A stretch of 64,000 bases of DNA, taken from positions 682,001 to 746,000 of the forward strand of contig NZ_CP086322.1 in the NCBI RefSeq assembly GCF_023277745.1, in the 5' to 3' direction. Below the pieces are notes generated by a model that made no database searches, had not been told where the DNA came from, and saw only the letters and a list, made by a program, of their open reading frames with translations. The translations under genes and the position numbers were made by a program. This stretch comes from Streptomyces halobius (lineage in GTDB: Bacteria > Actinomycetota > Actinomycetes > Streptomycetales > Streptomycetaceae). Positions 1,657 to 15,172 of the stretch are shown piece by piece; the first letter of the stretch is position 1; each line of letters starts with the position of its first letter.

Positions 1657-1745
1657 GACGCGGGCGGCGGGCGAAAGGCGTCCCCGGCTCCCGGGACGAC
1701 GGGAACGACGGGGACTGAACGACCGGGGCACCTGCCGTGCGCCCA

Positions 1746-1782
1746 CGGCCGGCCACCCCACTTTCCGTGTTGTGGCCGGCCG
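1746..1782 (+). terminator. Hairpin after the DUF885 gene
   Basis: Perfect 11-bp inverted repeat CGGCCGGCCAC / GTGGCCGGCCG (1746-1756 and 1772-1782) with a 15-base loop, placed 90 bases after the DUF885 stop. There is no T-run, as is common for Streptomyces terminators. It sits only 24 bases before the next start codon, so a role in the leader of the next gene is also possible. Confidence 0.6.
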
Positions 1783-1806
1783 CCACCGTCCGTAGGGTCC
1801 GACACC

Positions 1807-3297
1807 ATGGGCACCGACAGCACCCACCTCACCAACAGCGCCAGCAGCACCCGCAAGTCCGGCGCTCCCGGGCCGCACCGCCCGCTGTTCCTCTTCTCCG
1901 GCGCCCCCCACCCAGCTACCGCGGGGAGGTGCCCCCAGCGCCCCCGGCGTACGGACCCGCATTTCGCACCGGAGGCCGCGGCGGCGCGAGCGGCCGGCGC
2001 GGCGACCGCGGTGCTCGACCACGAAGCGCTGCTGTCCGGGGACGCCGAGCGGGCCGTGGCCCGGGTGCCGCGCGATGCCGGTGCCGTCTGGTATCGCGGC
2101 TGGATGCTCTCCGCCGCGCGCTACGCCGAGCTGGCTGCCGCCCTCACGGCCCGTGGCTGCCGCCTGCTGACCTCGCCCACCGCCTACCGCACCGCGCATG
2201 AACTCCCCGGCTGGTACGACACGTTCAGCGCGCTCACCCCGAAGAGCGTTTGGCTGCCCTGCGCTCCGGGCAGGGCTCCGCGGGCCGAAACCCTGGCGCG
2301 GCTGGCCCAGCCGTTCAGCGGCGGCCCCCTCGTCGTCAAGGACTGGGTGAAGTCCCGCAAGCACGAGTGGGACGAGGCCGTGTATGTGCCGGACGCGGCC
2401 GACACCGGGCGGCTGACGTCGGTGGTCGAACGGTTCATCGCCCTCCAGGAGGAGTTCCTCACCGGGGGCGTGGTGCTGCGCGCCTTCGAACCGTTCGGTG
2501 CAACGGGCGAGGCCCGGGTGTGGTGGGTGGCCGACGAGCCCGTCCTGATCAGCGCGCATCCCGATACCCCGCAGCAGCACCCGGTCCCCGATCTCACCCA
2601 AGCAGCCCCTGCAGTACGAGCATTGAGCTTACCCTTCATCACCACGGATCTTGCCAGGCGGGCGGACGGCGTCTGGCGGGTCGTGGAGGTCGGCGACGGC
2701 CAGGTCAGCGGGCTGCCCGAAGGGGCCGACACCGGGCCACTGTGCGAAGCGCTGGTCACCGTGGCCGCCGGTTTCCCGCTGACACTCAGGGAAGGGCGGG
2801 TGGCACTGCGCGCCCTGCTGCCGACCGTCGCGGCGCGGGTCGCGGACGGCGAACCCGCGGGGTTCGACTGGATCGACGGCGCACCGCCACCGGCCACGTC
2901 CGACGGCGCCAGGATCGCCGCACGCGCGGCCGCTGCCGGCCTCTACCGTCCCGGCTGGGGCGTCTTCGTCCTCACCGACGCCACGACGGGCACGGCCCTC
3001 GGCAGCATCGGCTTCCACGGCCCGCCGGACGGCGCGGGCTGGGTGGAGATCGGCTACGACCTCGCCCCGTCCGCACGCGGCGCCGGATGGGCCACCGACG
3101 CCACCCGACTGCTGGCCGGCTGGGCCGCGGCCCGGCCCGAGGTAGGCACGGTGTGCGCGCTGACCGAGCCGGAGAACCTGCCGTCGCAGCGAGTCCTCGA
3201 ACGCGCCGGCTTCCGGTTCGCCGGACAACGCGACGGCCTGCGCGCCTACGAGGCCGACGGGGCCGCCTTCGCCACACCGCCGGTCCGCACCGCCTGA
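1807..3297 (+). CDS. ATP-grasp domain fused to GNAT N-acetyltransferase
   Basis: 496 residues in two parts. Residues about 30-320 look like an ATP-grasp domain of the DUF4343 type; key stretches are VVKDWVKSRKHEW, the acidic VWWVADEPVLISAHP, and VVEVGDGQVSGLPEG near its end. Residues about 330-480 are a GNAT acetyltransferase: IGFHGPPDGAGWVEIGYDLA, then the acetyl-CoA loop region SARGAGWATDATRLL and NLPSQRVLERAGF. ATP-grasp enzymes ligate a carboxylate to an amine, and the GNAT half would acylate an amine; the substrate is unknown. An AGGG motif lies 8 bases before the ATG. Residues about 33-44 are encoded by a palindromic repeat that seems to be inserted in frame, which makes the extreme N terminus doubtful. 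Confidence 0.82.
   Translation: MGTDSTHLTNSASSTRKSGAPGPHRPLFLFSGAPHPATAGRCPQRPRRTDPHFAPEAAAARAAGAATAVLDHEALLSGDAERAVARVPRDAGAVWYRGWMLSAARYAELAAALTARGCRLLTSPTAYRTAHELPGWYDTFSALTPKSVWLPCAPGRAPRAETLARLAQPFSGGPLVVKDWVKSRKHEWDEAVYVPDAADTGRLTSVVERFIALQEEFLTGGVVLRAFEPFGATGEARVWWVADEPVLISAHPDTPQQHPVPDLTQAAPAVRALSLPFITTDLARRADGVWRVVEVGDGQVSGLPEGADTGPLCEALVTVAAGFPLTLREGRVALRALLPTVAARVADGEPAGFDWIDGAPPPATSDGARIAARAAAAGLYRPGWGVFVLTDATTGTALGSIGFHGPPDGAGWVEIGYDLAPSARGAGWATDATRLLAGWAAARPEVGTVCALTEPENLPSQRVLERAGFRFAGQRDGLRAYEADGAAFATPPVRTA
1905..1937 (+). repeat. Small hairpin repeat element inside the ATP-grasp/GNAT gene
   Basis: The stretch contains CCCAGC-TACC-GCGGGG, a 6-bp stem with one A.G mismatch and a TACC loop, flanked by C-rich and G-rich arms and followed by AGGTGCCCCCAG. 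It resembles a short intergenic repeat recalled from other Streptomyces genomes (CCCCCAGCTACCGCTGGGAGGTGCCCCCA-like). Here it lies in frame inside a coding sequence, between the residues SGAP and RPRRTDPHF. Confidence 0.5.
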
Positions 3298-3346
3298 GGG
3301 CTGACGCGGCCGAGCGGAGGCCCACCCGCGTCCGGCCCCGGCGTCC

Positions 3347-3856
3347 TCAACAGCCGCAATCCGCCGCCCCGACAGGTGCCGTCAGCGGATCCGCCGGCCG
3401 CTGTTCCGTGCCCTGCCGGGTCGTGACCTCGTAGCCCTCGCGGATCCAGTACTCGATGCCGCCGAGCATCTCCTTGACCCGGTAGCCGAGCCGGGCCAGT
3501 GTGAGGGCGGCGCGGGTGGCGCCGTCGCAGCCGGGGCCCCAGCAGTACACGACGACCGGAACCGCCGGGTCCAGCAACTCCCCCGCGTCCTGCGGGATGC
3601 GGGCGGAGGGCAGATGGACGGCGCCGGGCACATGGCCCTGGTCCCATGCCTCCGTGCTGCGGGAGTCGACGACGAAGTCGAGGGGAGACGCGTCGGCGGT
3701 CGCGAGCGCGCTGTGTACGTCGGCGACATCGGTGTGGAGGGCGAGGTGCGCGGCGAAGTACGCGGCGGCGTCGGCGGGGGCGGCCGGTGGGACGGCGAGG
3801 ACGGGTCCGGCGGGACGACCGCTGACGGCGTTGTGCTGCGGTATCTGTGTGATCAT
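3347..3856 (-). CDS. Rhodanese-like domain protein
   Basis: 169 residues, one rhodanese domain at about 35-155. The substrate loop YCWGPGCDGATR holds the expected active-site cysteine region (GxGCxxA-type), preceded by VVDSRSTEAWDQGHVPGAVHLP, the typical CH2A-like motif. Single-domain rhodaneses carry sulfur as a persulfide on cysteine; the real donor and acceptor are unknown. The C terminus adds two cysteines (DCGC). It is divergent from the Lrp/AsnC gene at 3950, with 93 bases between the starts, so the regulator probably controls this gene. That pairing of a rhodanese with an Lrp-type regulator is inference from position only. Confidence 0.9.
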   Translation of the reverse strand: MITQIPQHNAVSGRPAGPVLAVPPAAPADAAAYFAAHLALHTDVADVHSALATADASPLDFVVDSRSTEAWDQGHVPGAVHLPSARIPQDAGELLDPAVPVVVYCWGPGCDGATRAALTLARLGYRVKEMLGGIEYWIREGYEVTTRQGTEQRPADPLTAPVGAADCGC

Positions 3857-3949
3857 GGCCGATAATTTACGGTTCGTCGGGCGGGCCGATAAGCGACGAT
3901 CACCGGCAGAACCCTTGATCTACCGGGGATTCCACGCTAGACAGCGGAG
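3857..3949. promoter_or_regulatory. Shared divergent promoter region of rhodanese and Lrp/AsnC genes
   Basis: 93-base spacer between two divergent starts, less GC-rich than the flanks (for example GATAATTTACGG at 3859-3870). Lrp-type regulators usually bind and control the adjacent divergent gene. No single clear operator was singled out. Confidence 0.45.
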
Positions 3950-4396
3950 ATGACCGGCTATTCCCCTGACGCCACCGACTGGCGCATCCTCGATGTCCTG
4001 CAGCGCAACGGCCGTGCGGGCTACGCCGAACTGGCGCGCGCCGTGAACATGTCCGCGAGCGCCGTGACCGAACGGGTACGGCGGATGGAAGAGGCCGGGG
4101 TGATATCGGGCTACGCGGCGGTGATCGACCCGGAGCGGATCGGCCTGCCGGTCCTGGCGTTTGTGCGACTGCGGTACCCGAACGGCAACTACAAGCCGTT
4201 CCACGATCTCCTGGAGACCACACCGGAGATCCTGGAGGCGCACCACGTGACGGGCGACGACTGTTTCGTCATCAAGGTCGCCGCCCGGTCGATGCGGCAT
4301 CTGGAGGAGGTGTCGGGCCGGATCGGGTCCCTGGGCGCGGTGACGACCAGCGTCGTCTACTCATCGCCCCTCCCCCGCCGCCCAGTTGGGCGCTGA
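3950..4396 (+). CDS. Lrp/AsnC family transcriptional regulator
   Basis: 148 residues, the normal size. An N-terminal winged helix-turn-helix (about 5-60) reads DWRILDVLQRNGRAGYAELA and MSASAVTERVRRMEEAGVI, and the C-terminal RAM effector domain follows (VLAFVRLRYP, AHHVTGDDCFVIKVAA). These regulators sense amino acids or other small ligands and form octamers on DNA. The start ATG has GCGGAG just upstream. It is divergent from the rhodanese gene and convergent with sbcC (28 bases between stops). The probable target is the rhodanese gene. Confidence 0.95.
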   Translation: MTGYSPDATDWRILDVLQRNGRAGYAELARAVNMSASAVTERVRRMEEAGVISGYAAVIDPERIGLPVLAFVRLRYPNGNYKPFHDLLETTPEILEAHHVTGDDCFVIKVAARSMRHLEEVSGRIGSLGAVTTSVVYSSPLPRRPVGR

Positions 4397-4424
4397 CCTG
4401 CACCAGAACACAAGCCGACCCCGC

Positions 4425-7400
4425 TCACCCCTGCACCCGATGGCGCACCCTGGACCCCGACCGGTCCTTGACCACCTCCAGTTGGGCCGGGATGCGTGCC
4501 CGGAGGTCCGCGACATGGCTGACGATGCCGACGCTGCGGTCGCGTTCGCGCAGGGAGTCCAGGACGTCCAGCACTTCGTCGAGGGTCTGTTCGTCCAGGC
4601 TGCCGAAGCCCTCGTCGATGAAGAGGGTGTCCAGGCGGGTGCCGCCCGCCTCTTCGGTGACGACATCGGCGAGCCCGAGCGCCAGCGCGAGCGACGCGAA
4701 GAACGTCTCGCCGCCCGAGAGGCTGGAGGTGTCCCGCTCATGGCCCGTCCACGCGTCGATGACGTGCAGGCCGAGGCCGGAGCGACGGGCGCTGCCCGCC
4801 CGTTCGTCGGAGTGCACGAGGGTGTAGCGGCCGGCGGACATCCGGTGCAGGCGGGTGCTGGCGGCGGCCGCGACCTGTTCGAGGCGGGCGGCCAGGACGT
4901 AGGACTCCAGCCGCATCCGGCGCGCGTTCTCGGTGGAGGTGCCGGAGACGAGTGAGGCGAGGCGGGCGACGCGGTCGTAGGCGCTGCGCAGTGGGGCGAG
5001 TTCGCGGGCGTCGGCCTCGGCACGGACGGAGAGGCGGTCGAGGTCGGCGCAGCGTTCGCGGGCCGCGGCGTGGTGCGCGGAGGCGGTCCGCAGCCGGTGT
5101 GCCGCGGCGTCCAGCGCGGTGCGGGCGCCGTCCGGGTCCGCGGGTGGCAGGGCTGCGGCGGCGATGCCGTCCGGATCGGCCAACTCCGCTTTCACGGCGG
5201 CCGATTCGGCCTGCCATTCGTCGAGCTGCTGCTGCAGCGCGCGCCATTCGTCGTCGCGCAGCAGCGCCTCGGCGGCTGCCTGCGGGGTGTCGAATCCGGC
5301 GCGGTAGGCGGCGTCGGAGAGTGCGGCGTCGGCTTCCTTGAGCCGCTCGGCGCAGGAGTTCGCGGTGTGCGCCGCCTCCGCGGCGGCGGCGAGTTGGGCG
5401 ACCTGTCGCTCCAGTCGGCCGGCCCGGTCGGCGACGCTGGCGCAGTCGCCCCGCGCCTGGCTCAACTCCTCTTCCAGCATGGCCCGTTCACGGTCCAGCG
5501 CCTCACGGTGCGAGGTACGGGCGGCGGCCCTGCGCTCGGCGTTCTGCTGCTCGGCGCGGCGGCGTTCGTACTCCCGCTCGGCGCGTCCCAGCGCCTCACG
5601 CGCGGCATGCAGATCCGCGCCGGCCGCGTGCTCGCGCGCGTGGTCCGACCGCAGCTCATCGACGCGGGCGGCCAGTTCGGCGGTCGGCGTCTCCCCGGCC
5701 GTGGCGGCCGCCGCTGCCAGCGCCTCCCTGACGCCCTGGCAGCGGGTCTCCGTCTCCTGGCGGGCGTTCTCGGCCCGCCGCCAGGCCGTCAGCGCCGCTT
5801 CCTCGGCCGCCCGGTCGACGTGTCCGGCGCCCGCGCGGGCCGGGTCGGGGTGCTCGGTCGCGCCGCACGCCGCGCATGCCTCGCCGTCCCGCAGGCCGTC
5901 CGCGAGTTCGGCGGCGATGCCGCGCAGCCGGCGGTCCTTGAGGTCGAGCCAGTGCTCGTGGGCGGCCAGGGAGCGTTCCCTGGCGGCGAGCAACTCACCC
6001 TCGGCCGTGCGGAGTTCTGCGGTCAGCCGGTCGCGACGGCGGGCCGCTTCCAGGCGTGCGACGGCTGGTTCGAGCAGGGGACCGAGCTGTTCCGCCCGGG
6101 TCGCGGCCTCCTGGGCGGCCTCGATGCGCCGCTGGTGGGCCCGGCGGGCGGTGTCCCATGCGGCGAGCCACTGCGCGGCGTCCAGCAGCGTCTGCTCGTC
6201 GGACCGTGCCTCGCGGTCCAGGGCGGCGTGCTCCAGGCCGATGTCGGCGGCCCGCCGCTCGGCCCGGCGGGCCGCCGCGAGCGACCCCAGGTCTTCTCTC
6301 AACCGGCGTTCCGACGAGACGAGTTGGTCGCCCTCGGCGTCGGTGAGGTCGGGAGGCAGTACGGCTCTGTACTGCCGCTCGGCGCGCTGCGCGGCGGCCA
6401 GCTCGCGCCAGGCGGCGTCCCGCAGCGCCAGGGCGGGGGCGACGTCCGCGGCCGCGCGGGCGCGCTCCAGACGGCTCCGCGTACGGCCGTGCTCCTCGGC
6501 GTGGGCGTCGAGCCGGGCGGCCCGCCGGCGGGCGTCGGCGTGCCGCTGCTGGAGCCGGTGCCGCTCGCGGGCCTCCTCCAGCCGCCGGGCCGCCGCCCGT
6601 TCCGCCGCCTCGGCCGACCGCACCGCGGCCCGGGTGATCTCCAGCCGCTCCCGCGCGCCGGCCCGGGCCACGGCGGCCCTGACCAGCACGGCCTCGGCGA
6701 ATCCCGGCTCGCCTGGGCCGGGCGCGGGGGTGTCGGTACGGCCGGTCGCACCGCGGGCCGCCCCGCCCTCCGATGGCCCGGCCTGCGCGGGAACGGTGCC
6801 GGATGCCCGGCCGCGCCCCCGGACCGGTGCGGCCGGTGCGGCCCGTCCCGGGGCGGGGACCGACGGATCGGCGAGATCGGCGCTGTCACCGGCGGCCTGC
6901 GTCATCCGGTGGGCCAGCGCCAGCAGCCGTTCGTCGCCCGCAGCCACCCGGTCCGCCGCCGCCGTCCGGCGTGCGGTCAAACGCTCCTCAAGGGCGGCGA
7001 ATCTGCGCGTGTCGAAGAGCCGCCCGAGCAGCCGGGCCCTGGCCTCGGCGTCGGCGCGCAGGAAACGCGCGAAGTCGCCCTGCGGCAGCAGCACCACCTG
7101 GCAGAACTGCTCCTTGCTCATGCCGAGCAGCTGGCCGATCTCCTCGCCGATCTCCTGATGGGAGCGGCTCAGCGCCTTCCAGTCGCCGCCGCCGGAACCG
7201 TCAGCGGCCGGCGCGTCCCCGGCACCGGGCGCCTGCGCGGGCGCATACTCCCGCAGCCGGCTCTGCGCCTTCTCCCGGGTCGTCCCGCTGCCCCGTTTCT
7301 TGGGTCGGGTCTGCTCGGGCAGCCGGGTGATCTCCAACCGCCGTCCGCCCACGGTGAGTTCGAGGACGACCTCGGTGAGGGTCAGCGGGTCCGCGAGGTC

Positions 7401-7604
7401 GCTGCGCAGCGCCTGGCCGTTCTGCCGCGCTCCGGGCACCGACCCGTAGAGCGCGAAGCACACGGCGTCCAGGACCGAGGTCTTCCCGGCGCCCGTCGGC
7501 CCGTGCAGCAGGAACAGTCCGTCGCGCGAGAGCCGGTCGAAGTCGACGGTGTGGGTGCCGGCGAACGGGCCGAAGGCCGTGACGGACAGCCGGTGCAGCC
7601 TCAT
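4425..7604 (-). CDS. sbcC: Nuclease SbcCD subunit C (Rad50-like ATPase)
   Basis: 1059 residues. Walker A GPTGAGKTS is at 35-43, the Q-loop region follows (LLPQGDFARFL), then long arginine/glutamate-rich coiled-coil arms. The zinc-hook motif CAAC lies near the middle (GEACAACGATEHP). The C-terminal lobe has the ABC signature LSGGETFFASLAL and Walker B LFIDEGFGSLD. SbcC joins SbcD to process DNA hairpins and double-strand break ends. A low-complexity insert with PAPG and GR runs occurs about residues 240-300. It overlaps sbcD by four bases (ATGA), which indicates translational coupling. Confidence 0.97.
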   Translation of the reverse strand: MRLHRLSVTAFGPFAGTHTVDFDRLSRDGLFLLHGPTGAGKTSVLDAVCFALYGSVPGARQNGQALRSDLADPLTLTEVVLELTVGGRRLEITRLPEQTRPKKRGSGTTREKAQSRLREYAPAQAPGAGDAPAADGSGGGDWKALSRSHQEIGEEIGQLLGMSKEQFCQVVLLPQGDFARFLRADAEARARLLGRLFDTRRFAALEERLTARRTAAADRVAAGDERLLALAHRMTQAAGDSADLADPSVPAPGRAAPAAPVRGRGRASGTVPAQAGPSEGGAARGATGRTDTPAPGPGEPGFAEAVLVRAAVARAGARERLEITRAAVRSAEAAERAAARRLEEARERHRLQQRHADARRRAARLDAHAEEHGRTRSRLERARAAADVAPALALRDAAWRELAAAQRAERQYRAVLPPDLTDAEGDQLVSSERRLREDLGSLAAARRAERRAADIGLEHAALDREARSDEQTLLDAAQWLAAWDTARRAHQRRIEAAQEAATRAEQLGPLLEPAVARLEAARRRDRLTAELRTAEGELLAARERSLAAHEHWLDLKDRRLRGIAAELADGLRDGEACAACGATEHPDPARAGAGHVDRAAEEAALTAWRRAENARQETETRCQGVREALAAAAATAGETPTAELAARVDELRSDHAREHAAGADLHAAREALGRAEREYERRRAEQQNAERRAAARTSHREALDRERAMLEEELSQARGDCASVADRAGRLERQVAQLAAAAEAAHTANSCAERLKEADAALSDAAYRAGFDTPQAAAEALLRDDEWRALQQQLDEWQAESAAVKAELADPDGIAAAALPPADPDGARTALDAAAHRLRTASAHHAAARERCADLDRLSVRAEADARELAPLRSAYDRVARLASLVSGTSTENARRMRLESYVLAARLEQVAAAASTRLHRMSAGRYTLVHSDERAGSARRSGLGLHVIDAWTGHERDTSSLSGGETFFASLALALGLADVVTEEAGGTRLDTLFIDEGFGSLDEQTLDEVLDVLDSLRERDRSVGIVSHVADLRARIPAQLEVVKDRSGSRVRHRVQG

Positions 7605-8767
7605 CGCGCCACCTCGTGCACCGTGTCGTCGAGGCGTACCTCGTCGATCGCGGACCGCAGTTCGGCCCGCTCGTCCTCGTCGGCCGCGCGTCCGGCCCGT
7701 ACGTGTGCCACGAAGTCCTCGGCGATCTCCTGGTCGCTGCGCCCGCGCAGCCGCTGCGCGTACGAGGCCGTTGAACGGGCGGGCCCCTCATCGGGGTCGA
7801 AGACCAGGCTGAGGACATGCGGGAAGCGCTTGCCGAGCCGGGCCATCGGTTCGTGCGGGCGGGAGGTGTCGGTGAGCGTCGCCTCCACCCAGGAATCCTC
7901 GTACCGGGCCAGCGCCGGATCGTCCAACAGGCGTTCCAGCGGGCCCCGGATACGGGCCAGCGGGCGGGGCACCGGGCAGTCCACCCGCTCCGCGCGCACC
8001 GTGCCCGCCGCGTCGAGGTCGACGATCCAGGTCGACTTGCGGTGGTCGGCCTCGGAGAAGGAGTAGGCGAGCGGGGATCCGGAGTAGCGGACCCGTTCGG
8101 TGAGGGTCTGGCAGCCGTGCAGATGTCCGAGGGCGGCGTAGTCGACACCGTCGAAGACAGCCGCGGGGACGGAGGCGACGCCGCCGACGGTGATATCGCG
8201 CTCACTGTCGCTGGGGGCGCCGCCGGTGACGAAGGCGTGCGCGAGGACGACGGACCGCATCCCCCGGGGCCGGGCGGCCAGGTCGGCCCGTACCCGGTCC
8301 ATCGCCGCGCCCAGCACGTCGGCGTGGCCGGCCCGTGGGGCGCCGAGTTCGTCGCGCACCATGGCTGGTTCGAGATACGGCAGCCCGTAGAGCGCCACCG
8401 GGCCGTGCGCGTCGGCGAGCAGCACGGGGGTGCCGCAGGCCGCCGGGTCGGTGCGCAGATGGATGCCGGCGCGCCGCATCAGTCCGGAGCCGACGCCCAG
8501 CCGGCGGGCGGAGTCGTGGTTGCCGGAGATCATGACCGTGGGGACGCCGAGCCCGGCGAGGCGGTGCAGGGCGTCGTCGAAGAGCTCCACGGCGGCGAGC
8601 GGCGGCACGGCACGGTCGTAGATGTCCCCGGCGACGAGCACCGCGTCGACCTCCCGCTCGCGGACCGTCTCGACGAGGTGATCGAGGAACGCGCGCTGCG
8701 CGGTGAGCAGGCTCACACGGTGGAACGACCGCCCCAGGTGCCAGTCGGAGGTGTGCAGCAGTCTCAC
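7601..8767 (-). CDS. sbcD: Exonuclease SbcCD subunit D
   Basis: 388 residues from the GTG at 8767. The longer open frame upstream is not protein-like, and GGAG lies about 8 bases before this GTG. All metallophosphoesterase motifs are visible: TSDWHLGRSF, VAGDIYDRAVPP, ISGNHDSARR, VLAHAF and GHLHGCQ. SbcD is the Mn-dependent nuclease that works with SbcC on hairpins and blocked ends. The gene leads a two-gene operon and its stop overlaps the sbcC start. The first in-frame start further upstream (9010) would add 81 residues with no family resemblance. Confidence 0.96.
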   Translation of the reverse strand: MRLLHTSDWHLGRSFHRVSLLTAQRAFLDHLVETVREREVDAVLVAGDIYDRAVPPLAAVELFDDALHRLAGLGVPTVMISGNHDSARRLGVGSGLMRRAGIHLRTDPAACGTPVLLADAHGPVALYGLPYLEPAMVRDELGAPRAGHADVLGAAMDRVRADLAARPRGMRSVVLAHAFVTGGAPSDSERDITVGGVASVPAAVFDGVDYAALGHLHGCQTLTERVRYSGSPLAYSFSEADHRKSTWIVDLDAAGTVRAERVDCPVPRPLARIRGPLERLLDDPALARYEDSWVEATLTDTSRPHEPMARLGKRFPHVLSLVFDPDEGPARSTASYAQRLRGRSDQEIAEDFVAHVRAGRAADEDERAELRSAIDEVRLDDTVHEVAR

Positions 8768-9050
8768 CGATGGGCTCCGGCCCGCATGTGTTCGTCCCTC
8801 TCCCCGCTCGCGGCTGATGATCGCCCCCAAGTTTCGCACCCGGAGAGGTGTGCGGTGGGCACTCCCCGGCGGATGACGACGGATCCGGTCAGGCGGTGAC
8901 CTCGGGATCCGGGCGGCCGGCTGATGACAGTGGCCTGTCGCTGACGGCGATGGCCCGACACCGTCCGATGCGGGGACGAAGCCCACCCGCTCCTCCGGTA
9001 AGTCAGGCACCGGTCAGCCTCTTCTCACACCGGCACCCCGCCGGTCCCGG

Positions 9051-9677
9051 TCACACGTCCCCGTACGCCTCGCCGCCCAGCTCCAGCTTCGCGGTCCCCG
9101 CCGTCACATCGGCCAGCCAGGCGCCAAAGGCGGTCAGATCGGCCTCCGGCAGCCCGACCTCGATGCGGACGTCCGCCCCGTAGGTCACCTCGCGCACCGC
9201 ACGCCCCGTCGTCCGCAGATCGTTCTCCACCCGGCCCGCACGCTGGTGGTCGACAGTGACCGTCACCAGCCGGAAGCGCTGCCGGGTGACGGTGCCCAGC
9301 ACGTCCAGCGCCTCCCCGACGACGCCTCCGTAGGCCCGGATCAGACCGCCCGCGCCGAGCTTGACGCCGCCGAAGTACCGCGTGACGACGGCGACGGCAT
9401 AGCGCACCTCGCGGCGCACCAGCATCTGCAGCATCGGTGCGCCCGCGGTGCCGCCCGGCTCACCGTCGTCGCTCGCCTTCTGGACGCCGCCGTCGGCGCC
9501 GAGGACATAGGCGAAGCAGTGGTGGCGGGCGGTGGGGTGCTCCTTGCGGATGCGCGCGATGAAGTCCTGGGCCTCGGTCTCGGTCGCGACGGGCGCGAGC
9601 GCGCAGAGGAAGCGGGACTTGTTGATCTCGATCTCGTGGACACCCTCGCGCGCGAGAGTCCGGTACTGATCCTGCAT
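9051..9677 (-). CDS. YigZ/IMPACT family protein
   Basis: 208 residues. The N-terminal IMPACT domain has INKSRFLCALAPV, the conserved HHCFAYVLG, and the signature SDDGEPGGTAGAPML, followed by VVTRYFGGVKLGAGGLIRAY. The C-terminal ferredoxin-like UPF0029 domain covers roughly 140-208. The family is conserved but of uncertain function; the eukaryotic relative IMPACT controls translation through GCN1. The start ATG gives a normal-length product. The gene stands alone: 283 bases upstream of it in the downstream direction separate it from sbcD, and nothing notable was seen in that spacer. Confidence 0.93.
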   Translation of the reverse strand: MQDQYRTLAREGVHEIEINKSRFLCALAPVATETEAQDFIARIRKEHPTARHHCFAYVLGADGGVQKASDDGEPGGTAGAPMLQMLVRREVRYAVAVVTRYFGGVKLGAGGLIRAYGGVVGEALDVLGTVTRQRFRLVTVTVDHQRAGRVENDLRTTGRAVREVTYGADVRIEVGLPEADLTAFGAWLADVTAGTAKLELGGEAYGDV

Positions 9678-9920
9678 CGCACCAGCCTATGCGGGCCCAC
9701 TGACAGACGGACACCACACGTCCCAGGCGCAGCGCCGCGCTGCGGTGTCCGCCGTACGGGCGCAGCCCGCACGGCCAGGCGGCGGACTCGCACGGCCCGC
9801 ACGGTGCGTCGGGCAGACGTCCGGGGTGCCCGTAGGCACTGTGAGCCCAGGGCGAGGGCCTCGTGATTCCGGGGCCGACTCGTGCACTCAGGATCGGAAC
9901 GGCGGGTTGGCGGAGGCTTC

Positions 9921-10709
9921 ATGGACAACAGCACACAGGCGGCGATGACGGCGGGCGAACCGAAGACGGGTTCGGATATGCCCGAGCCGCCCCCGGAGGT
10001 CATCGAGGCGGCACGGAACGCGCCCGATCACTGGCTGGCGATGGTGGATCTGACCTGGTCGGGCGAGGGGGCACCGCCGCTGTGGGCGCTGATCGGCCAG
10101 TGGCGGTCGGGACCGACCGGCGAAATCGAGGAGTGGCGGGACAACCCGGAGTACCGGCCGTCCCCGCAGATGCTGGACTGGGCGGACCCGGCCGACGCCG
10201 TCGACCGGGCCGTACAGCTCGCCGCCACCGGTTACGGCCCGGCCCAGGACGTGCACGAGACACTGGCGCGCGCGGAGGTCTCCGTGCTGGTCACCACGAC
10301 CGGGACCCCGCTGGCCGCGGCCTCTCCCGAGGGCACCCCGGTGATCCCCGTCTACACCTCGCCGGTCTATCTCGAATCCGTGGGACGTCTGCTGTACGAC
10401 CGGCGGCCGGTGGCCGAACTCGTCGAGCAGCTGCCGCCGGGCCACGCCCTGTATCTGAACCCGACCGGCCCGGTGAGCATGCTGGTGGAGACCGGGCCGC
10501 TGCGTGCGGCGCTGGCCGCCGTCGGGGCCGGCGCCACGGAGCAGCCGGACGATGCCGACGAGACGGCCGCTCCGGGGGCGCTGCGTCCCGGCACCGGGGC
10601 CGCCGGGGTCGAGCCGGTGCCGATCGGCAAGCCGGCCCGCACCACGGGCGGCAGCAGCGTCGTCGGGGCCGGGATGGCAGGCAGCGGGGTGGTCGGCGGC
10701 CCGAACTGA
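9921..10709 (+). CDS. Type VII secretion system-associated protein
   Basis: 262 residues from the ATG at 9921, preceded by a clear GGAGG at 9912-9916; an earlier ATG at 9882 lacks this. Two stretches recall Streptomyces proteins annotated as type VII secretion-associated: EVIEAARNAPDHWLAMVDL with YRPSPQMLDWADPADAVDRA, and then an SseB-like domain (VYTSPVYLESVGRLLYDRRPV, LPPGHALYLNPTGPVSML). The C-terminal 70 residues are low complexity (Gly/Ala/Ser/Asp). No membrane segment or signal peptide is visible. No Esx or EccC gene lies in the window, so the link to secretion is from family naming only. Confidence 0.75.
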   Translation: MDNSTQAAMTAGEPKTGSDMPEPPPEVIEAARNAPDHWLAMVDLTWSGEGAPPLWALIGQWRSGPTGEIEEWRDNPEYRPSPQMLDWADPADAVDRAVQLAATGYGPAQDVHETLARAEVSVLVTTTGTPLAAASPEGTPVIPVYTSPVYLESVGRLLYDRRPVAELVEQLPPGHALYLNPTGPVSMLVETGPLRAALAAVGAGATEQPDDADETAAPGALRPGTGAAGVEPVPIGKPARTTGGSSVVGAGMAGSGVVGGPN

Positions 10710-10727
10710 CCGTCGGCACACGGACCC

Positions 10728-10757
10728 GCCCCGCCCGTCTTCCCCTTCGGGCGGGGC
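10728..10757 (+). terminator. Terminator after the type VII-associated gene
   Basis: Perfect 10-bp stem GCCCCGCCCG / CGGGCGGGGC (10728-10737, 10748-10757) with a pyrimidine-rich 10-base loop, 18 bases after the stop codon. Confidence 0.8.
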
Positions 10758-10814
10758 GTCTGCATAGGCGCCGGAATTCCGGCCCGACGGACGCACCGGG
10801 AATCCAGCCCGATT

Positions 10815-10930
10815 CCTCAGAGGAACAGTCAGAACGCGAGCATGTTCAGACGGGGGGAAGCCACGTCGGGCGCGCAGATCTGCAGCGGCATCAGCCAGTT
10901 CGCGCAACCGGTGAACAGCGGCATCGCCCG
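10815..10930 (-). pseudogene. Fragment of cytochrome c oxidase subunit I (ctaD)
   Basis: On the minus strand this reads PLFTGCANWLMPLQICAPDV then ASPRLNMLAF, a stop (TGA), and LFL. The family motif is [32 protein letters not shown], so the stop sits where a tryptophan codon (TGG) is expected. Only about 35 residues remain of a roughly 570-residue membrane protein. A remnant, not a gene. Confidence 0.7.
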
Positions 10931-10965
10931 GTTGTGCTGGTCTCCCTGGCATCGGCTGCACCCCC

Positions 10966-11163
10966 GTGACGAGCATGTCGGCCCATCTCGCCGCTTTCGG
11001 TTCGTCCCGCCCGGTGCTGGTCCTGCACGCCGACCGCTCCCCCGCCGACCACGCCCTGCGCGCCGAGACACACGAACTCGTCGAACAACTGCCGGGCGCC
11101 CGTGCCGTCTTCTGGTACGAGCGCCCCGGTCCGGAGGAACCCGGCGCCCGACTCGGTACGTAG
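10966..11163 (+). pseudogene. Fragment of flavohemoprotein (nitric oxide dioxygenase) reductase domain
   Basis: An open frame of 65 residues reads HLAAFGSSRPVLVLHADRSP then ADHALRAETHELVEQLPGA, and ends near FWYE. This matches the NAD-binding part of Hmp-type flavohemoproteins (TxRPVxVxHADRSPADHALR). The haem and FAD domains are missing, so this is an isolated remnant. It lies head-on to the ctaD fragment at its left. Confidence 0.68.
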
Positions 11164-11459
11164 CTCCTTCCTGACGCCGCGGCCGCGCAGCAGCATGACC
11201 GGCCCGGAGACGCCCAGAGCCATGCCGAACGTCCTGAGCAGGGCGCCGTCTTGGCGGTAAGCAGCCTGTCCCAACGGCACCATTGGCCCCGGTTCGACGA
11301 CGACCCCGCGGGCGCTGGGCTGCAGGGCGAACCACATGCTGCGCGAGTCGGTGATTCGCCCGTCTTGACTCCCGTCTGGGCGGTCATGGACTGCGGCCCA
11401 GGTGACGTCACCTTAACTTCGGGTCGTCGGTTTATTCCGATAAGGCTGATTTAGACTTT
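11164..11459. other. Non-coding spacer with an unidentified minus-strand remnant
   Basis: The minus strand around 11165-11340 is open and protein-like (GPMVPLGQAAYRQDGALL, MALGVSGPVMLLRGRG) but I do not recognise the family and see no proper ends. It probably belongs to the same patch of gene debris as the two fragments to its left. From about 11400 the sequence becomes AT-richer (TTATTCCGATAAGGCTGATT), consistent with a promoter for the Gln-rich gene. Confidence 0.4.
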
Positions 11460-11507
11460 ATGTCAGCTTCTCTCGTGTTTACATCGGATGGAGCATTCAT
11501 AACGGTG

Positions 11508-11909
11508 ATGACCGGTACCCAACAACCCCTGCAGCAGTTCGGTCAGCAGACCGGAGGCCAGCAGCAGATCACGCAGGTGGTCCAGCAGGCGATCCAGCAG
11601 GCGTGTCAGCAGACGAGCCAGCAGGTCGCGCAGCAGATGCAGCAGGTCCAGCAGCAGCTCCAGCAGCAGGGCCTGGGCCACCAGGCCCACCCGTACCTCG
11701 CCCTCGCGCTGCACCGCGCACTGCACGCGGGCATCCGGCACGCGGTGGAGCAGTCCGTGCAGCAGGCGCTGCCGACCGCGATCGTGACCCTGCTTCAGCA
11801 GGGTCAGCAGGGCCAGCAGTGGGGCGGCGGGTTCGGCCAGCAGTTCCCGCAGTACCAGCAGCCGGGCTTCGGCTACGGCCAGATGGGTCAGCCCTTCGGC
11901 ATCGGCTGA
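11508..11909 (+). CDS. Glutamine-rich protein of unknown function
   Basis: 133 residues from ATG 11508 (GTG 11505 or ATG 11460 are alternatives; GGAG at 11490 fits none perfectly). About a third of the residues are glutamine, many in QQ or QxxQQ patterns that would form a polar or coiled-coil helix (QQAIQQACQQTSQQVAQQMQ). A short conserved-looking core follows (HPYLALALHRALHAGIRHAV), then a Gly/Gln/Tyr/Phe tail (FGQQFPQYQQPGFGYGQMGQ), which resembles low-complexity, self-associating tails. No known domain. The gene lies 130 bases before the pseudo-subtilase in the same direction, and a functional link is possible. Confidence 0.7.
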   Translation: MTGTQQPLQQFGQQTGGQQQITQVVQQAIQQACQQTSQQVAQQMQQVQQQLQQQGLGHQAHPYLALALHRALHAGIRHAVEQSVQQALPTAIVTLLQQGQQGQQWGGGFGQQFPQYQQPGFGYGQMGQPFGIG

Positions 11910-12039
11910 ACCCTGGCGGCGCGCGATGCGGTGTGCCCCGGAGTGCTTCCCGGGCACACCGCATCACCGTGGAAGCGCGAGCCGCCTGTTACCGGATCAG
12001 GAGCAGAAATACGACGTAGGCGTGGTGAAGGTGGACGTA

Positions 12040-13776
12040 ATGGTCAAGGAAAGGCCCGGAAACAGCCGCGAGAGCGGGTCCGAGGGCGCGGGGGCAGGTG
12101 GACCGGGCCCCGAGGGCAAGGAAACGGGGCCACGCAAGGAAGGCGCGCCGACACCCCTCACGGTGCAGCCACGCCGGGAGCGGTATTTGGTGACACCGCT
12201 GCCGCAGCAACTGCTCCCACCGGGAGTGCCCGAACTCGACATGGACACGGTCTGTGACCGGCTGGACCAGATGCCCGAGGTCACAGTGATCCGCAGACTC
12301 CAGCCGTCGGAGAAGCTCCAGTCGGCCGGGCTGCCCCCCTCCTGCCCGGAAATCGCGGTCGTCGAGGCAGCCGAGGCCCAGATCCCGGCGATGCAGTCGC
12401 TCCACGTACACATCGAGCCGGACCTGCCACTGGCCGGAACCGGACCCGCCGCCACACCGGCCGCGGGGATTCTGCCGCTCCGCGATCCGGGGCTGGTCAC
12501 GCCGCTGGAGCAACCCGTAGAAATCTCGTTGCGCGTCTGTGGCCCGGACGGCGAACCGCTGGCCGGCGCGGGGGTGTTCCTGATCGGGGCGACCTGGCCG
12601 AGCCAGGGCATCACCAGGGCCGACGGGACGGTCACCATCGCGCTGGCGACGGAGACCGCACACTCCGTCCGGTCCCTGTACGTGCGCCCCAGGAGCGGTT
12701 ACACGGACCGCTGGATCCCTCGCCCCGACCTGTCGGCGACCCGGGAGAACGTCGTCACCCTCACCCCGCTGGCCAAGGCGTACCCGGAGTTGGAGAAGCG
12801 GCAGCGGTACGGGTGGGGCCAGCAGGCCATGCGGCTGGACCGGCTGCCCCCCACGTTCCGCGCCTTCGGCGTCAAGATCGCGGTCATCGGGTCGGGGGTC
12901 AGCGCCGAGCACCCCGATCTGAAGGAACGGGTGCGCTCCGGGGTCGATCTGGTTCGCGGCACGGACGACGGATGGGCTCGCGACACCGTGGGCAGCGGTA
13001 CACACGCGGCGGGCATCATCGCCGGGGCGGACACCGGCAAGGGCGTCATCGGTATCGCGGTCGACGCCGAGATCGAGGTCTGTCAGGTGATGCACGACGG
13101 GCATTTCAGCGATCTCATCGCCGCGCTGGACCACTGCATCGCACACGAGGTCGACATCGCGCACATCGCGGTGGCGACCCCGTACTCGTCGGCGCTGGTC
13201 TCCCGCAAAGTCGCCGACGCCAACGCGGCGGGCATCGCCTGCGTCGCCCCGGCGGGCGACACCGGCGGGCCGGTCGCCTTCCCGGGCTCGCTGCCCACCG
13301 TGTTCGCCGTGGGCGCGCTGGGAGCCTTCGGCTCGTACCCGCAGGGCACGTCCCAAGCCACCCATTTGGGGCCGCAGTTGACACCGGAAGGGCTGTTCGC
13401 CGCGCCGTTCAGCTGCTACGGGCCCGGCGTCGACGCGGCCGCCCCCGGTGTGGCGGTCCTGTCGTGCGTGCCACAGGGCGGATACACGGCTCTCGACGGC
13501 ACCGGCACGGCCTCGGCGCATGTCGCCGGCCTCGCCGCCCTCGTTCTCGCTCACCACGAGGACTTCCACGGCCAGCTGCTGCCCCGCGGATCCGGCCGGG
13601 TGCAGCGCTTGTTCGAGATCATCTCGGCCAGCTGCCGCCCGCTGGCCGCGCAGGGCACACAGGAAGCGGCCCACGTCGGACGCGGCTTGCCCGACGGTCT
13701 CATCGCCCTCGGCCTGGCCCCGGGAGTGCAGCTCGCTCCGGCCTTGTCGCCCTACGCCCCGTCGATGGCGGGTTGA
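12040..13776 (+). CDS. Subtilisin-fold (S8) pseudoprotease with N-terminal accessory domain
   Basis: 578 residues from ATG 12040, preceded by AAGGTGG at 12028-12034. A disordered start (1-60) is followed by an accessory region, a carboxypeptidase-regulatory-like beta domain (about 160-250: EISLRVCGPDGEPLAGAGVF), then an S8 domain (about 275-540). All catalytic positions are changed: Asp is Gly284 (VKIAVIGSGVSAEHPDL), His is Ser319 (GSGTHAAGIIAG), Ser is Gly489 (DGTGTASAHVAGLAAL), and the oxyanion Asn is Asp407 (APAGDTGG). The fold motifs around them are intact and the frame is unbroken, so it is probably expressed as a non-enzymatic protein. No signal peptide, so likely cytoplasmic. A strong terminator follows. 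Confidence 0.88.
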   Translation: MVKERPGNSRESGSEGAGAGGPGPEGKETGPRKEGAPTPLTVQPRRERYLVTPLPQQLLPPGVPELDMDTVCDRLDQMPEVTVIRRLQPSEKLQSAGLPPSCPEIAVVEAAEAQIPAMQSLHVHIEPDLPLAGTGPAATPAAGILPLRDPGLVTPLEQPVEISLRVCGPDGEPLAGAGVFLIGATWPSQGITRADGTVTIALATETAHSVRSLYVRPRSGYTDRWIPRPDLSATRENVVTLTPLAKAYPELEKRQRYGWGQQAMRLDRLPPTFRAFGVKIAVIGSGVSAEHPDLKERVRSGVDLVRGTDDGWARDTVGSGTHAAGIIAGADTGKGVIGIAVDAEIEVCQVMHDGHFSDLIAALDHCIAHEVDIAHIAVATPYSSALVSRKVADANAAGIACVAPAGDTGGPVAFPGSLPTVFAVGALGAFGSYPQGTSQATHLGPQLTPEGLFAAPFSCYGPGVDAAAPGVAVLSCVPQGGYTALDGTGTASAHVAGLAALVLAHHEDFHGQLLPRGSGRVQRLFEIISASCRPLAAQGTQEAAHVGRGLPDGLIALGLAPGVQLAPALSPYAPSMAG

Positions 13777-13798
13777 GCCCGTCCTCACGGCAGGCTCA

Positions 13799-13836
13799 CA
13801 GAACGGCACCCGCCTTGAGGGACGGGTGCCGTTCTG
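13799..13836 (+). terminator. Terminator after the S8 pseudoprotease
   Basis: Perfect 14-bp stem CAGAACGGCACCCG / CGGGTGCCGTTCTG (13799-13812, 13823-13836) with a 10-base loop, 22 bases downstream of the stop. Confidence 0.88.
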
Positions 13837-13938
13837 CGCCGTACCGGCGAACCCAGTCACCCCACAGCGTCCGAAAGGAATCAGCCAAGCCGATCACCCG
13901 TTGTGCTGCACAGGGACCATGGACTACAGGAGGCACCG

Positions 13939-14346
13939 ATGCACGACGACCAGGCGACCATCCGCAGAATCCTCACCGAGCTCGGAGACACCTGGGCCGT
14001 CGTGGGACTGTCCGGGAACCGGCAGCGCGCCGCGTACGGCGTCGCAGAGGTGCTGCAGGGTTACGGCAAGCGGATCGTCCCCGTGCACCCGAAAGCCGAG
14101 ACCGTGCACGGGGAAGTGGGCTATCCGTCCCTTGATGCCGTCCCCTTCAAGGTCGACGTGGTCGACGTCTTCGTGCGCAGCGACCTCGCCGGAGCCATCG
14201 CCGACGAAGCCGTCACCATCGGCGCCGAGGCCGTCTGGTTCCAGCTCGGGGTCAAGGACGACGCCGCCTACCACCGCACCCGCGCCGCCGGTCTCGCCAT
14301 GGTCATGGACCGCTGTCCGGCGATTGAGATTCCCCGTTTGGGCTGA
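13939..14346 (+). CDS. CoA-binding domain protein (YccU type)
   Basis: 135 residues starting at ATG 13939 with AGGAGG directly upstream. A Rossmann-like CoA_binding_2 domain fills the protein: WAVVGLSGNRQRAAYGVAEV, then GKRIVPVHPKA, VDVVDVFVRSD, AVWFQLGV, and the conserved VMDRCPAIE near the end. Relatives are small stand-alone versions of the CoA-binding domain of succinyl-CoA synthetase alpha; their cellular role is not settled. It sits between two terminator-like or debris regions and looks monocistronic. Confidence 0.92.
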   Translation: MHDDQATIRRILTELGDTWAVVGLSGNRQRAAYGVAEVLQGYGKRIVPVHPKAETVHGEVGYPSLDAVPFKVDVVDVFVRSDLAGAIADEAVTIGAEAVWFQLGVKDDAAYHRTRAAGLAMVMDRCPAIEIPRLG

Positions 14347-14371
14347 GCGCGGGCCGGGTCAGCGTCCGGGC

Positions 14372-14613
14372 GTGATCGCACCACGTGCCGCTGTTCCCGA
14401 GGACGCCGCCGAGCTCGTCCGGCTGATGTTCTTTGCGATGAACGGGCCTGATGAGCCGGGGGGTTGGGAGCGGGACGCGGAGGCGGTGGGGCGCCGGCAG
14501 CCGGCCGGTCCGGATGCGCCCCTGGGCGGGTTCGTCGTGGACGGCGACCTCGCGGACGGCGACGCGCGGGTGCGCCGTATCTGGCGGCGTGCGCGGTGGG
14601 GCGGCGGCGTGAG
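14372..14613 (+). pseudogene. Truncated GNAT acetyltransferase remnant
   Basis: From GTG 14372 the frame reads VIAPRAAVPEDAAELVRLMF, the usual opening of a GNAT domain, then DAPLGGFVVDGDLADG, but the acetyl-CoA-binding half is missing and the frame runs on into antisense of the next gene. Roughly 80 of about 160 residues remain. No intact copy lies nearby. Confidence 0.6.
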
Positions 14614-14614
14614 C

Positions 14615-15172
14615 CTAGGCCACGCCGAGCCCCTCCAGGACCGTGGCGCCCGGCAGTTGGGCCAGCGCCTTGCCCGGTACGATCAGCTTGCCGCGGCGGC
14701 CGCCGCTGCCGATCAGCGCGTACGGCATATCGGCCACGGCGGAGTCCACCAGAATCGGCCAGGAGGTGGGCAGGCCGATCGGGGTGATGCCGCCGTACTC
14801 CATGCCGCTGTCCCCGACCGCGGTGTCCGTCGGCGCGAACGACGCCTTACGGGCGCCCAGTTGGCGGCGTACCACGCCGTTGACGTCGACCCGGGTGTGT
14901 GAGCGGACCACGCAGGCGGCCAGGGTGACCGTGCCGCCGCGCTTGCCGGCCACCACGACACAGTTCGCCGACTGCTGGAGCAGCCAGGCGCCGTGATGCG
15001 CGACGAGGGATTCGGTGTCCGCGATGGCCGGATCCGTATCGACATAGCGGAGTTCCTCGACCGGTACGGGTCCGCGCCAGCCGCGGATCGCGGCGGCGAC
15101 GGGTTCGGTCAGCAGGTCCAGGGACTCGGCGGCGGGCCGGACATCGTCGAAGGCATCCATCGGCACGGGCAT
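14615..15172 (-). CDS. YbaK/EbsC family protein (aminoacyl-tRNA deacylase-like)
   Basis: 185 residues. The YbaK/aa-tRNA deacylase domain spans about 45-180: HGAWLLQQSANCVVVAGKRG, KASFAPTDTAVGDSG, then EYGGITPIGLP and a closing LIGSGGRRGKLIVPGKALAQ, all characteristic of the family. Such proteins hydrolyse mischarged tRNAs such as Cys-tRNAPro or Ala-tRNAPro; this one's substrate is unknown. It is co-directional with the XRE-cupin gene 26 bases upstream and may share its transcript. Confidence 0.9.
   Translation of the reverse strand: MPVPMDAFDDVRPAAESLDLLTEPVAAAIRGWRGPVPVEELRYVDTDPAIADTESLVAHHGAWLLQQSANCVVVAGKRGGTVTLAACVVRSHTRVDVNGVVRRQLGARKASFAPTDTAVGDSGMEYGGITPIGLPTSWPILVDSAVADMPYALIGSGGRRGKLIVPGKALAQLPGATVLEGLGVA

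Follow-up and report, generated by a model that had tools for sequence, protein, structure and literature searches.

A two-gene Streptomyces cassette coding for a pseudoprotease of subtilisin fold and a glutamine-rich protein

Introduction

What maintains a protein of subtilisin fold in a genome when its catalytic residues are gone? The question is raised by the gene at positions 12040..13776 (+) of a 64,000-nucleotide stretch of Streptomyces halobius DNA (contig NZ_CP086322.1, positions 682,001 to 746,000), which was analysed as a whole and is called the window. The gene codes for the window's own S8 protein, named P0001, and is preceded by a gene for a glutamine-rich protein. The comparisons below support that P0001 and its close homologs form a clade of pseudoproteases under purifying selection, whose most likely function would be to bind the glutamine-rich protein, or to serve as its scaffold, without catalysis. 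The best known bacterial subtilase pseudoprotease is CspC, and few others have been studied to our knowledge. Proteins of the P0001 clade are labeled S8 family serine peptidases in public records, a misleading name. As a class, inactive serine protease homologs are already known, since a 2008 survey of 91 prokaryotic genomes counts 42 catalytically inactive homologs in a set of 966 serine proteases from five families (PMC2605481). A literature search, whose scope did not extend to subscription journals, gave no account of this pseudoprotease family among the matches listed.

The S8 protein and its catalytic positions

The open reading frame comprises 578 codons, open throughout in the reading-frame listing and translation, as the earlier note on this DNA had claimed. 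It can be extended 5' to position 11926, with GTG codons lying ahead of ATG 12040. These starts were rejected because the same frame meets a stop ahead of the ATG in two related loci (L058 and L044), which leaves ATG 12040 as the probable start, in agreement with the coordinate of that note. P0001 scores 88.2 bits against PF00082 (cut-off 21.8), which assigns it to the S8 (subtilase) fold, matches subtilisins of the Protein Data Bank (PDB) at E-values down to 7e-28 and has a predicted structure model of the same fold. Alignment to subtilisins and homologs confirms the claim that all four catalytic positions are replaced: Gly284 (12889..12891, +) stands for the catalytic Asp, Ser319 (12994..12996, +) for the catalytic His, Asp407 (13258..13260, +) for the oxyanion Asn and Gly489 (13504..13506, +) for the nucleophilic Ser. 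P0001 carries neither the Asp-His-Ser triad nor the oxyanion Asn of S8 peptidases.

These substitutions are not confined to this copy. A protein search yielded 255 homologs, and residues were counted in the best 120 of them together with the query (121 rows). Position 284 is Gly in 120 rows and Cys in one, position 407 is Asp in all 121, position 319 is Ser in 59, Thr in 59 and His in none, while position 489 is Gly in 94 and Ser in five, the rest being mixed. The four positions are written below as a code in the order Asp, His, Asn, Ser, the dead type being defined by Gly or Cys at the first place and Asp at the third. Pooling all sources gave 316 distinct sequences, a set weighted toward the neighborhoods of the search queries, with 148 DHNS, 144 of the dead type, 11 DHSS, four DHDS, two DHDA, two DHNA and one each of DSDA, DRDA, DYNS, NHNS and a broken copy. 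GTDG is the commonest dead type (61 rows). P0001 is therefore no lone mutant, as 144 of the 316 sequences share its type. The earlier description of every surrounding fold motif as intact holds for the fold and fails for the substrate site. Over the protein, 13 positions are fixed differently between the dead (144) and intact (148) rows at cut-offs chosen in this analysis. Several of them, N375H, L378V, A404P, N407D and P493A, by subtilisin numbering we take to lie in the former substrate strand or pocket.

Selection and occurrence

The ratio of non-synonymous to synonymous substitution rates (dN/dS) was estimated by the Nei-Gojobori method for 38 distinct Streptomyces coding sequences of the pseudoprotease (703 pairs), none of which has an internal stop. 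The median is 0.286 and the maximum 0.397; by part, the values are 0.31 in the prodomain, 0.35 in the beta-sandwich and 0.22 in both the S8 domain and the C-terminus. The same method, applied to the BLAST-aligned part of control genes, gave 0.22 for active Microbispora members (12 sequences), 0.09 for active Bradyrhizobium members (10) and 0.31 for Planotetraspora members (six, four of them DHSS). The ratio is thus not near 1, and both the whole gene (0.29) and its S8 domain (0.22) come close to active Microbispora. Because close homologs share the substitutions and dN/dS is far from 1, a selected pseudoprotease is supported; of the non-enzymatic binding protein suggested earlier this part stands, and binding is a proposal treated below.

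When 392 Streptomyces genomes were scanned with P0001 (best three candidates per genome scored, E <1e-40), 30 were matched. A full-length dead copy of 78–100% identity, the window's own included, occurs in 25 of the 392. Among the 30 carriers the copy is broken in G007 and more distant in G069, G190, G241 and G260, the last having in addition a fragment of the close type. Fourteen of 394 genomes drawn from the class matched at E <1e-60; motifs were parsed in 12 of these 14 loci, where the window and G241 are degenerate and ten keep Asp and Ser.

Intact relatives and the order of loss

A genome scan with a six-row alignment confirmed at least 307 relatives, spanning Actinomycetota, Pseudomonadota and Acidobacteriota, of which 80 (79 loci) were kept. 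Intact relatives from the three phyla are 35–46% identical to P0001 and have its architecture. These members (from Microbispora, Nonomuraea, Bradyrhizobium, Massilia and others) share its domain order and often have a glutamine-rich or Gly-zipper-like gene upstream; they differ in keeping the triad and in the additional genes of their operons (see below).

A first, quick tree included the fragment L004. A careful tree of 91 rows, from which this fragment and one outgroup row were excluded, was evaluated by bootstrap and by the Shimodaira-Hasegawa-like approximate likelihood ratio test (SH-aLRT). In the latter tree the dead type forms one clade (bootstrap/SH-aLRT 100/99), as it does together with P0214 and a Saccharopolyspora soli protein (L118), both DHDS (100/99); a wider group that takes in the DHDA, DSDA and DRDA rows and P0167 (DHNA) has 99/97. 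When rows were labeled by loss of Ser or by Gly/Cys at the first position, a label that extends to P0222, parsimony counted four changes. In the quick tree, L103 is basal among the Streptomyces rows and reads GTDS. As partly degraded relatives branch beside the dead clade, the catalytic machinery appears to have been lost in steps. On this evidence, Asn probably changed to Asp before Asp and His disappeared, and in the Streptomyces line Ser was probably the last to go. Outside this line there are cases in which Ser was lost and Asp and His were kept.

Several further loci are of note. The linear plasmid p3211-2 of Streptomyces sp. 3211 carries a degenerate relative (L148, 4698-6284), DHDT by eye, with its own glutamine-rich partner and an IS5 transposase near. 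In Planotetraspora, four of six loci (L074, L075, L081, L084) have an intact triad with oxyanion Asn replaced by Ser (DHSS), which may be a second early stage of loss. In L062, two tandem intact family copies (1-5155 and 7564-14619) adjoin, by reading, a large YD/RHS-like repeat protein.

Domain organization of P0001

The 578-residue pseudoprotease begins with a polar segment, mostly predicted disordered (residues 1-44, 12040..12171, +; predicted local distance difference test score (pLDDT) <50 for residues 1-33). In agreement with the earlier note, no signal peptide is apparent in this N-terminus, as judged by reading and not with a predictor. Residues 45-131 (12172..12432, +) have the beta-alpha-beta-beta-alpha-beta order of an I9-like prodomain in the predicted model, where this ferredoxin-like domain sits on the S8 domain; it looks like a prodomain, and by sequence Pfam I9 gives no match in P0001. 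It is followed by the accessory beta-sandwich that had been proposed (residues 155-243, 12502..12768, +; strands 160-240 in the model), which resembles Big_1 and CarboxypepD_reg below their cut-offs: the CarboxypepD_reg match in P0001 has E 0.091, and Big_1 gives 25 bits against a cut-off of 34.9 in the intact relative P0136. The subtilisin domain covers residues 250-560 (12787..13719, +), of which 266 align with plain subtilisins.

The glutamine-rich partner and operon context

Gene 1 of the cassette codes for the glutamine-rich partner (11505..11909, +), defined by a 12-sequence alignment (77–87% identity to the window) and a structure model. The window reads ATA at 11499-11501, where its relatives have the start ATG, and the likely start is GTG 11505 or ATG 11508; either one of these would serve, or expression would be reduced in this strain. 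The model has two long helices at residues 34-70 and 77-117 (numbered from 11460) with disordered, low-complexity tails rich in Gln, Gly and Phe. The 31 glutamine-rich sequences compared have 134–189 residues as cut and a mean of 35% Gln, and the protein has no Pfam or NCBIfam match above cut-off. Its gene is found upstream of the S8 gene in all 37 distinct dead-type loci with enough sequence.

In active operons the S8 gene is often preceded by a glutamine-rich or Gly-zipper-like repeat gene and by gene 2 and/or gene 3, which code for a small helical protein and a stand-alone prodomain-like protein, respectively. Operons were counted in 93 of 100 distinct places, those with at least 1200 bases upstream, and seven were dropped. 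With profiles of genes 2 and 3 that were built from the active loci, and therefore match active loci by construction, one or both of these genes are detected in 49 of the 51 triad-intact loci (45 DHNS, five DHSS, one DHDS), the exceptions being one DHNS locus and the DHDS locus; a glutamine-rich gene is present in 39. The 42 triad-lost loci (37 dead type, two DHDA, one DSDA, one DRDA, one broken) have neither gene 2 nor gene 3, a count that reflects few events, not 42, because these loci mostly belong to one clade. A glutamine-rich gene accompanies 40 of them, all except the broken copy and L057, whose related partner is Gln-poor. Little room remains in the dead loci for an overlooked gene, since 130 bases separate the two genes in the window and 79 to 235 do so in L059, L063, L064 and L118; L057, with 438 bases, is the exception.

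Gene 1 of the active operons L078 (6315-7280), L137 (6560-7645), L120 (6670-7536) and L070 (6091-7317) codes, by reading, for a repeat protein. Its Gly-zipper-like units of about 40 residues end in LPFSAQP-like motifs, with linkers that are often Gln-rich, an organization like that of a polyprotein for the subtilase; in L070, PF13488 falls just below its cut-off. A simple link between these repeats and the catalytic state was rejected, since the Microbispora partner in L080 has no repeats and the enzyme is intact. Stand-alone prodomain-like proteins with EPDxP(L/V) tails are encoded directly before active subtilases in L070 (7626-7895), L072 (7689-7904) and L120 (7601-7864). From their sequences they are possible bacterial I9-type inhibitors encoded with their protease.

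The remaining surroundings of the cassette mostly differ among strains. In the window, the gene at 9882-10709 scores 201 bits (cut-off 85) with NF033532, the model of an SseB-like protein associated with type VII secretion. A type VII secretion link was dropped, as no relative of this gene clusters with the cassette in the other loci examined, the gene's own surroundings not having been searched for a type VII cluster.

RNA hairpins and leader

A hairpin lies between the two genes (GATGCGGTGTGCCC...GGGCACACCGCATC, 11925..11965, +; -35 kcal/mol, z -6.8). Among 39 distinct genes for a glutamine-rich protein of this type, 38 have its core on their 3' side and the one in L063 does not; in L064 the core trails the glutamine-rich gene that does not adjoin the S8 gene. 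Across 32 hairpin sequences, pairing is kept in 95.7% of cells, and changes on both sides occur at 8 of 18 pairs. Note that these sequences were chosen by a pattern that fixes part of the core, and core pairs therefore say little; the both-side changes affect outer and upper pairs plus one core pair. None of 500 shuffles reaches the observed pairing, both-side changes or covariation score, whereas 49 of them attain the observed number of pair types. The hairpin is present as a single copy in the 9.24 Mb genome with up to three mismatches allowed, which led to rejection of a dispersed repeat, and a search of Rfam returned nothing above gathering score. A terminator-like hairpin after the second gene (13799..13836, +; -32.3 kcal/mol, z -6.5) closes the operon. 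Upstream, the leader of the glutamine-rich gene (11405..11493, +; 31 upstream regions aligned, folds of 12) features in relatives two small stem-loops followed by a GGAG ribosome site, and the window's own leader folds weakly (z -1.5).

Comparison with known systems

The germination pseudoproteases CspC and CspA of Clostridioides difficile, which are subtilases, resemble P0001 in their subtilisin fold, uncleaved prodomain, a state that P0001 would share, and replaced catalytic residues; the CspC pseudotriad is Gly485, Thr170 and Asp105 (PMC6636752). By sequence, CspC converges with the GTDG type on the same Ser and His replacements. In contrast to the Csp proteins, the P0001 clade has also lost Asp and the oxyanion Asn, a beta-sandwich separates the prodomain of P0001 from its S8 domain, and no gene for an active partner protease adjoins its own. 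P0001 scores far below the family models NF040808 (20.8 bits against 675) and NF040809 (22.3 against 1250). Nor does its S8 domain contain the jelly-roll insert of about 130 residues found in CspA/CspC, since too little is left for it once 266 of residues 250-560 align with plain subtilisins.

The entries for unprocessed pro-subtilisin E and pro-Tk-subtilisin (3whi, 3wiu, 2e1p) describe in their titles an active enzyme in unprocessed or mutant form, whereas P0001 would remain in this state permanently and has an inserted beta-sandwich. The stand-alone I9 propeptide-like inhibitors POIA1 and SUB1-ProM (PMC6993865) are matched by gene 3, a short free prodomain relative with a similar tail; gene 3, a putative inhibitor, differs in that it is bacterial, accompanies the gene of its presumed protease and was not found in dead loci. 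The best NCBIfam match of P0001 is the type VII secretion system mycosin TIGR03921, at 83.5 bits, well below the cut-off of 278.75; P0001 differs from the mycosin in that reading reveals neither a signal peptide nor a membrane helix, and the loci that were annotated by eye showed no type VII cluster. P0001 is not part of an IetAS pair, as it matches only the generic PADLOC subtilase model and its partner has no Pfam ATPase match, the similarity of the partner to IetA (E 0.031) being confined to 41 residues in a glutamine-rich stretch. It is not a PatA/PatG cyanobactin protease either (TIGR03895, 20.1 against 421).

Function and alternative explanations

The reading that we favor, with a probability of about one half, is a two-gene Streptomyces cassette in which a pseudoprotease locked as a zymogen binds the glutamine-rich protein. 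The ancestor of P0001 would be an active subtilase belonging to a larger family of operons, and it probably cut or controlled the glutamine-rich protein. Without self-cleavage, P0001 would be unable to remove its own prodomain, which would go on covering the old groove and keep the protein a locked zymogen permanently. It would bind the glutamine-rich protein, or the assemblies of that protein, and act inside the cell as a scaffold, chaperone or limiter of assembly. The intercistronic hairpin would dampen expression of the pseudoprotease gene and thereby leave the partner in excess. This mechanism is proposed because the partner is retained, the inhibitor-like gene is absent, the model is zymogen-like and no signal peptide is apparent. 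A fuller scenario, tentative and somewhat unlikely as a whole, is that a processing subtilase lost catalysis stepwise (Asn, then Asp and His, with Ser last or repeatedly) to become a locked-zymogen chaperone of a prion-like bacterial protein, with loss of the inhibitor gene and a low dose set by the hairpin.

A number of observations weigh against the favored reading. Binding of the glutamine-rich protein by P0001 is something we infer from sequences and a model. The model of gene 1 is weak (mean pLDDT 57.5), and the dN/dS of the partner, 0.42, is above that of the pseudoprotease. The profile of the stand-alone prodomain (gene 3) matches the intact relative P0123 at E 2e-6 and misses P0001, whose prodomain therefore rests on the model and on alignment to relatives. 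Genes 2 and 3 may have disappeared only once, within a single clade, and they are missing too from the DHDS locus, whose triad is intact. The group that adds the DHDA, DSDA and DRDA rows to the dead and DHDS rows, without P0167, has a support of only 87/62. The neighbors of the cassette are not wholly random, since certain strains have in common an adjoining alcohol dehydrogenase gene and further genes. The cassette is dispensable, because it occurs in a minority of strains and the G007 copy (L004/L060) is broken, being reduced to fragments. Finally, residue 489 varies freely across the dead clade, and part of the old site is therefore simply unconstrained.

The last two observations, together with the patchy distribution and with the lack of a glutamine-rich frame within 4.5 kb upstream of the G007 (L060) copy, are what a pseudogene on its way out would give, in which catalysis went first and the frame is still unbroken. 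The low dN/dS over all 703 pairs, the absence of stops, the fixation of substituted site residues such as Asp407 and the covariation of the hairpin contradict this and leave it hardly credible. That P0001 is still an enzyme through other residues is highly improbable. His291, Asp293, His322, Asp486 and His494 are nearly invariant, and subtilases with altered catalytic residues have reportedly been described (Siezen 2007); but the same His and Asp residues occur in intact relatives as non-catalytic residues, the pocket residues are changed too, and no replacement nucleophile is apparent, position 489 being Gly, Val, Ser, Thr, Ala or Ile and Ser492 being Ala in 7 of 121 rows.

The main rival is a signaling role like that of CspC, in which the dead subtilase would regulate an active one with which it shares the cell, whether as sensor, as decoy or by holding inhibitors. 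The Ser-to-Gly and His-to-Thr replacements that CspC shares with GTDG (PMC6636752) and the nine further PF00082 places in the window's genome speak for it. The cassette has no active protease gene, however, the best other match to P0001 in its own genome is a generic subtilase (E 2e-18; 22 of 43 candidates scored), and among the best three candidates of each genome an intact family member was seen in one of 30 carriers (G069); we regard this role as unlikely. A selfish or toxin-antitoxin-like mobile cassette, whose glutamine-rich protein is toxic and neutralized by the dead protease, would explain why two genes are kept together between mostly unlike neighbors. Transposase-like genes near some copies (IS5 annotated, IS3-like by reading), the related degenerate copy on a linear plasmid and the Gly-zipper-like repeats of active relatives (by reading, with PF13488 just under its cut-off), which recall pore-forming or aggregating proteins, point the same way. 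It is nonetheless rather improbable, as PADLOC offers only its generic subtilase model, there is no phage match at E 1e-20, and the glutamine-rich protein has neither a recognized family nor a Gly-zipper.

Beyond what the earlier note had described, the analysis adds the prodomain, the glutamine-rich partner, the hairpin and a stepwise history, and it names a specific candidate ligand, the glutamine-rich protein. Within the S8 family studied here, a single architecture and a retained partner gene unite members that are active, half-degraded or fully dead, so that the sequence in which a pseudoenzyme arises can be tested. If the fuller scenario is true, the cassette would represent a transition from enzyme to scaffold with surviving intermediates.
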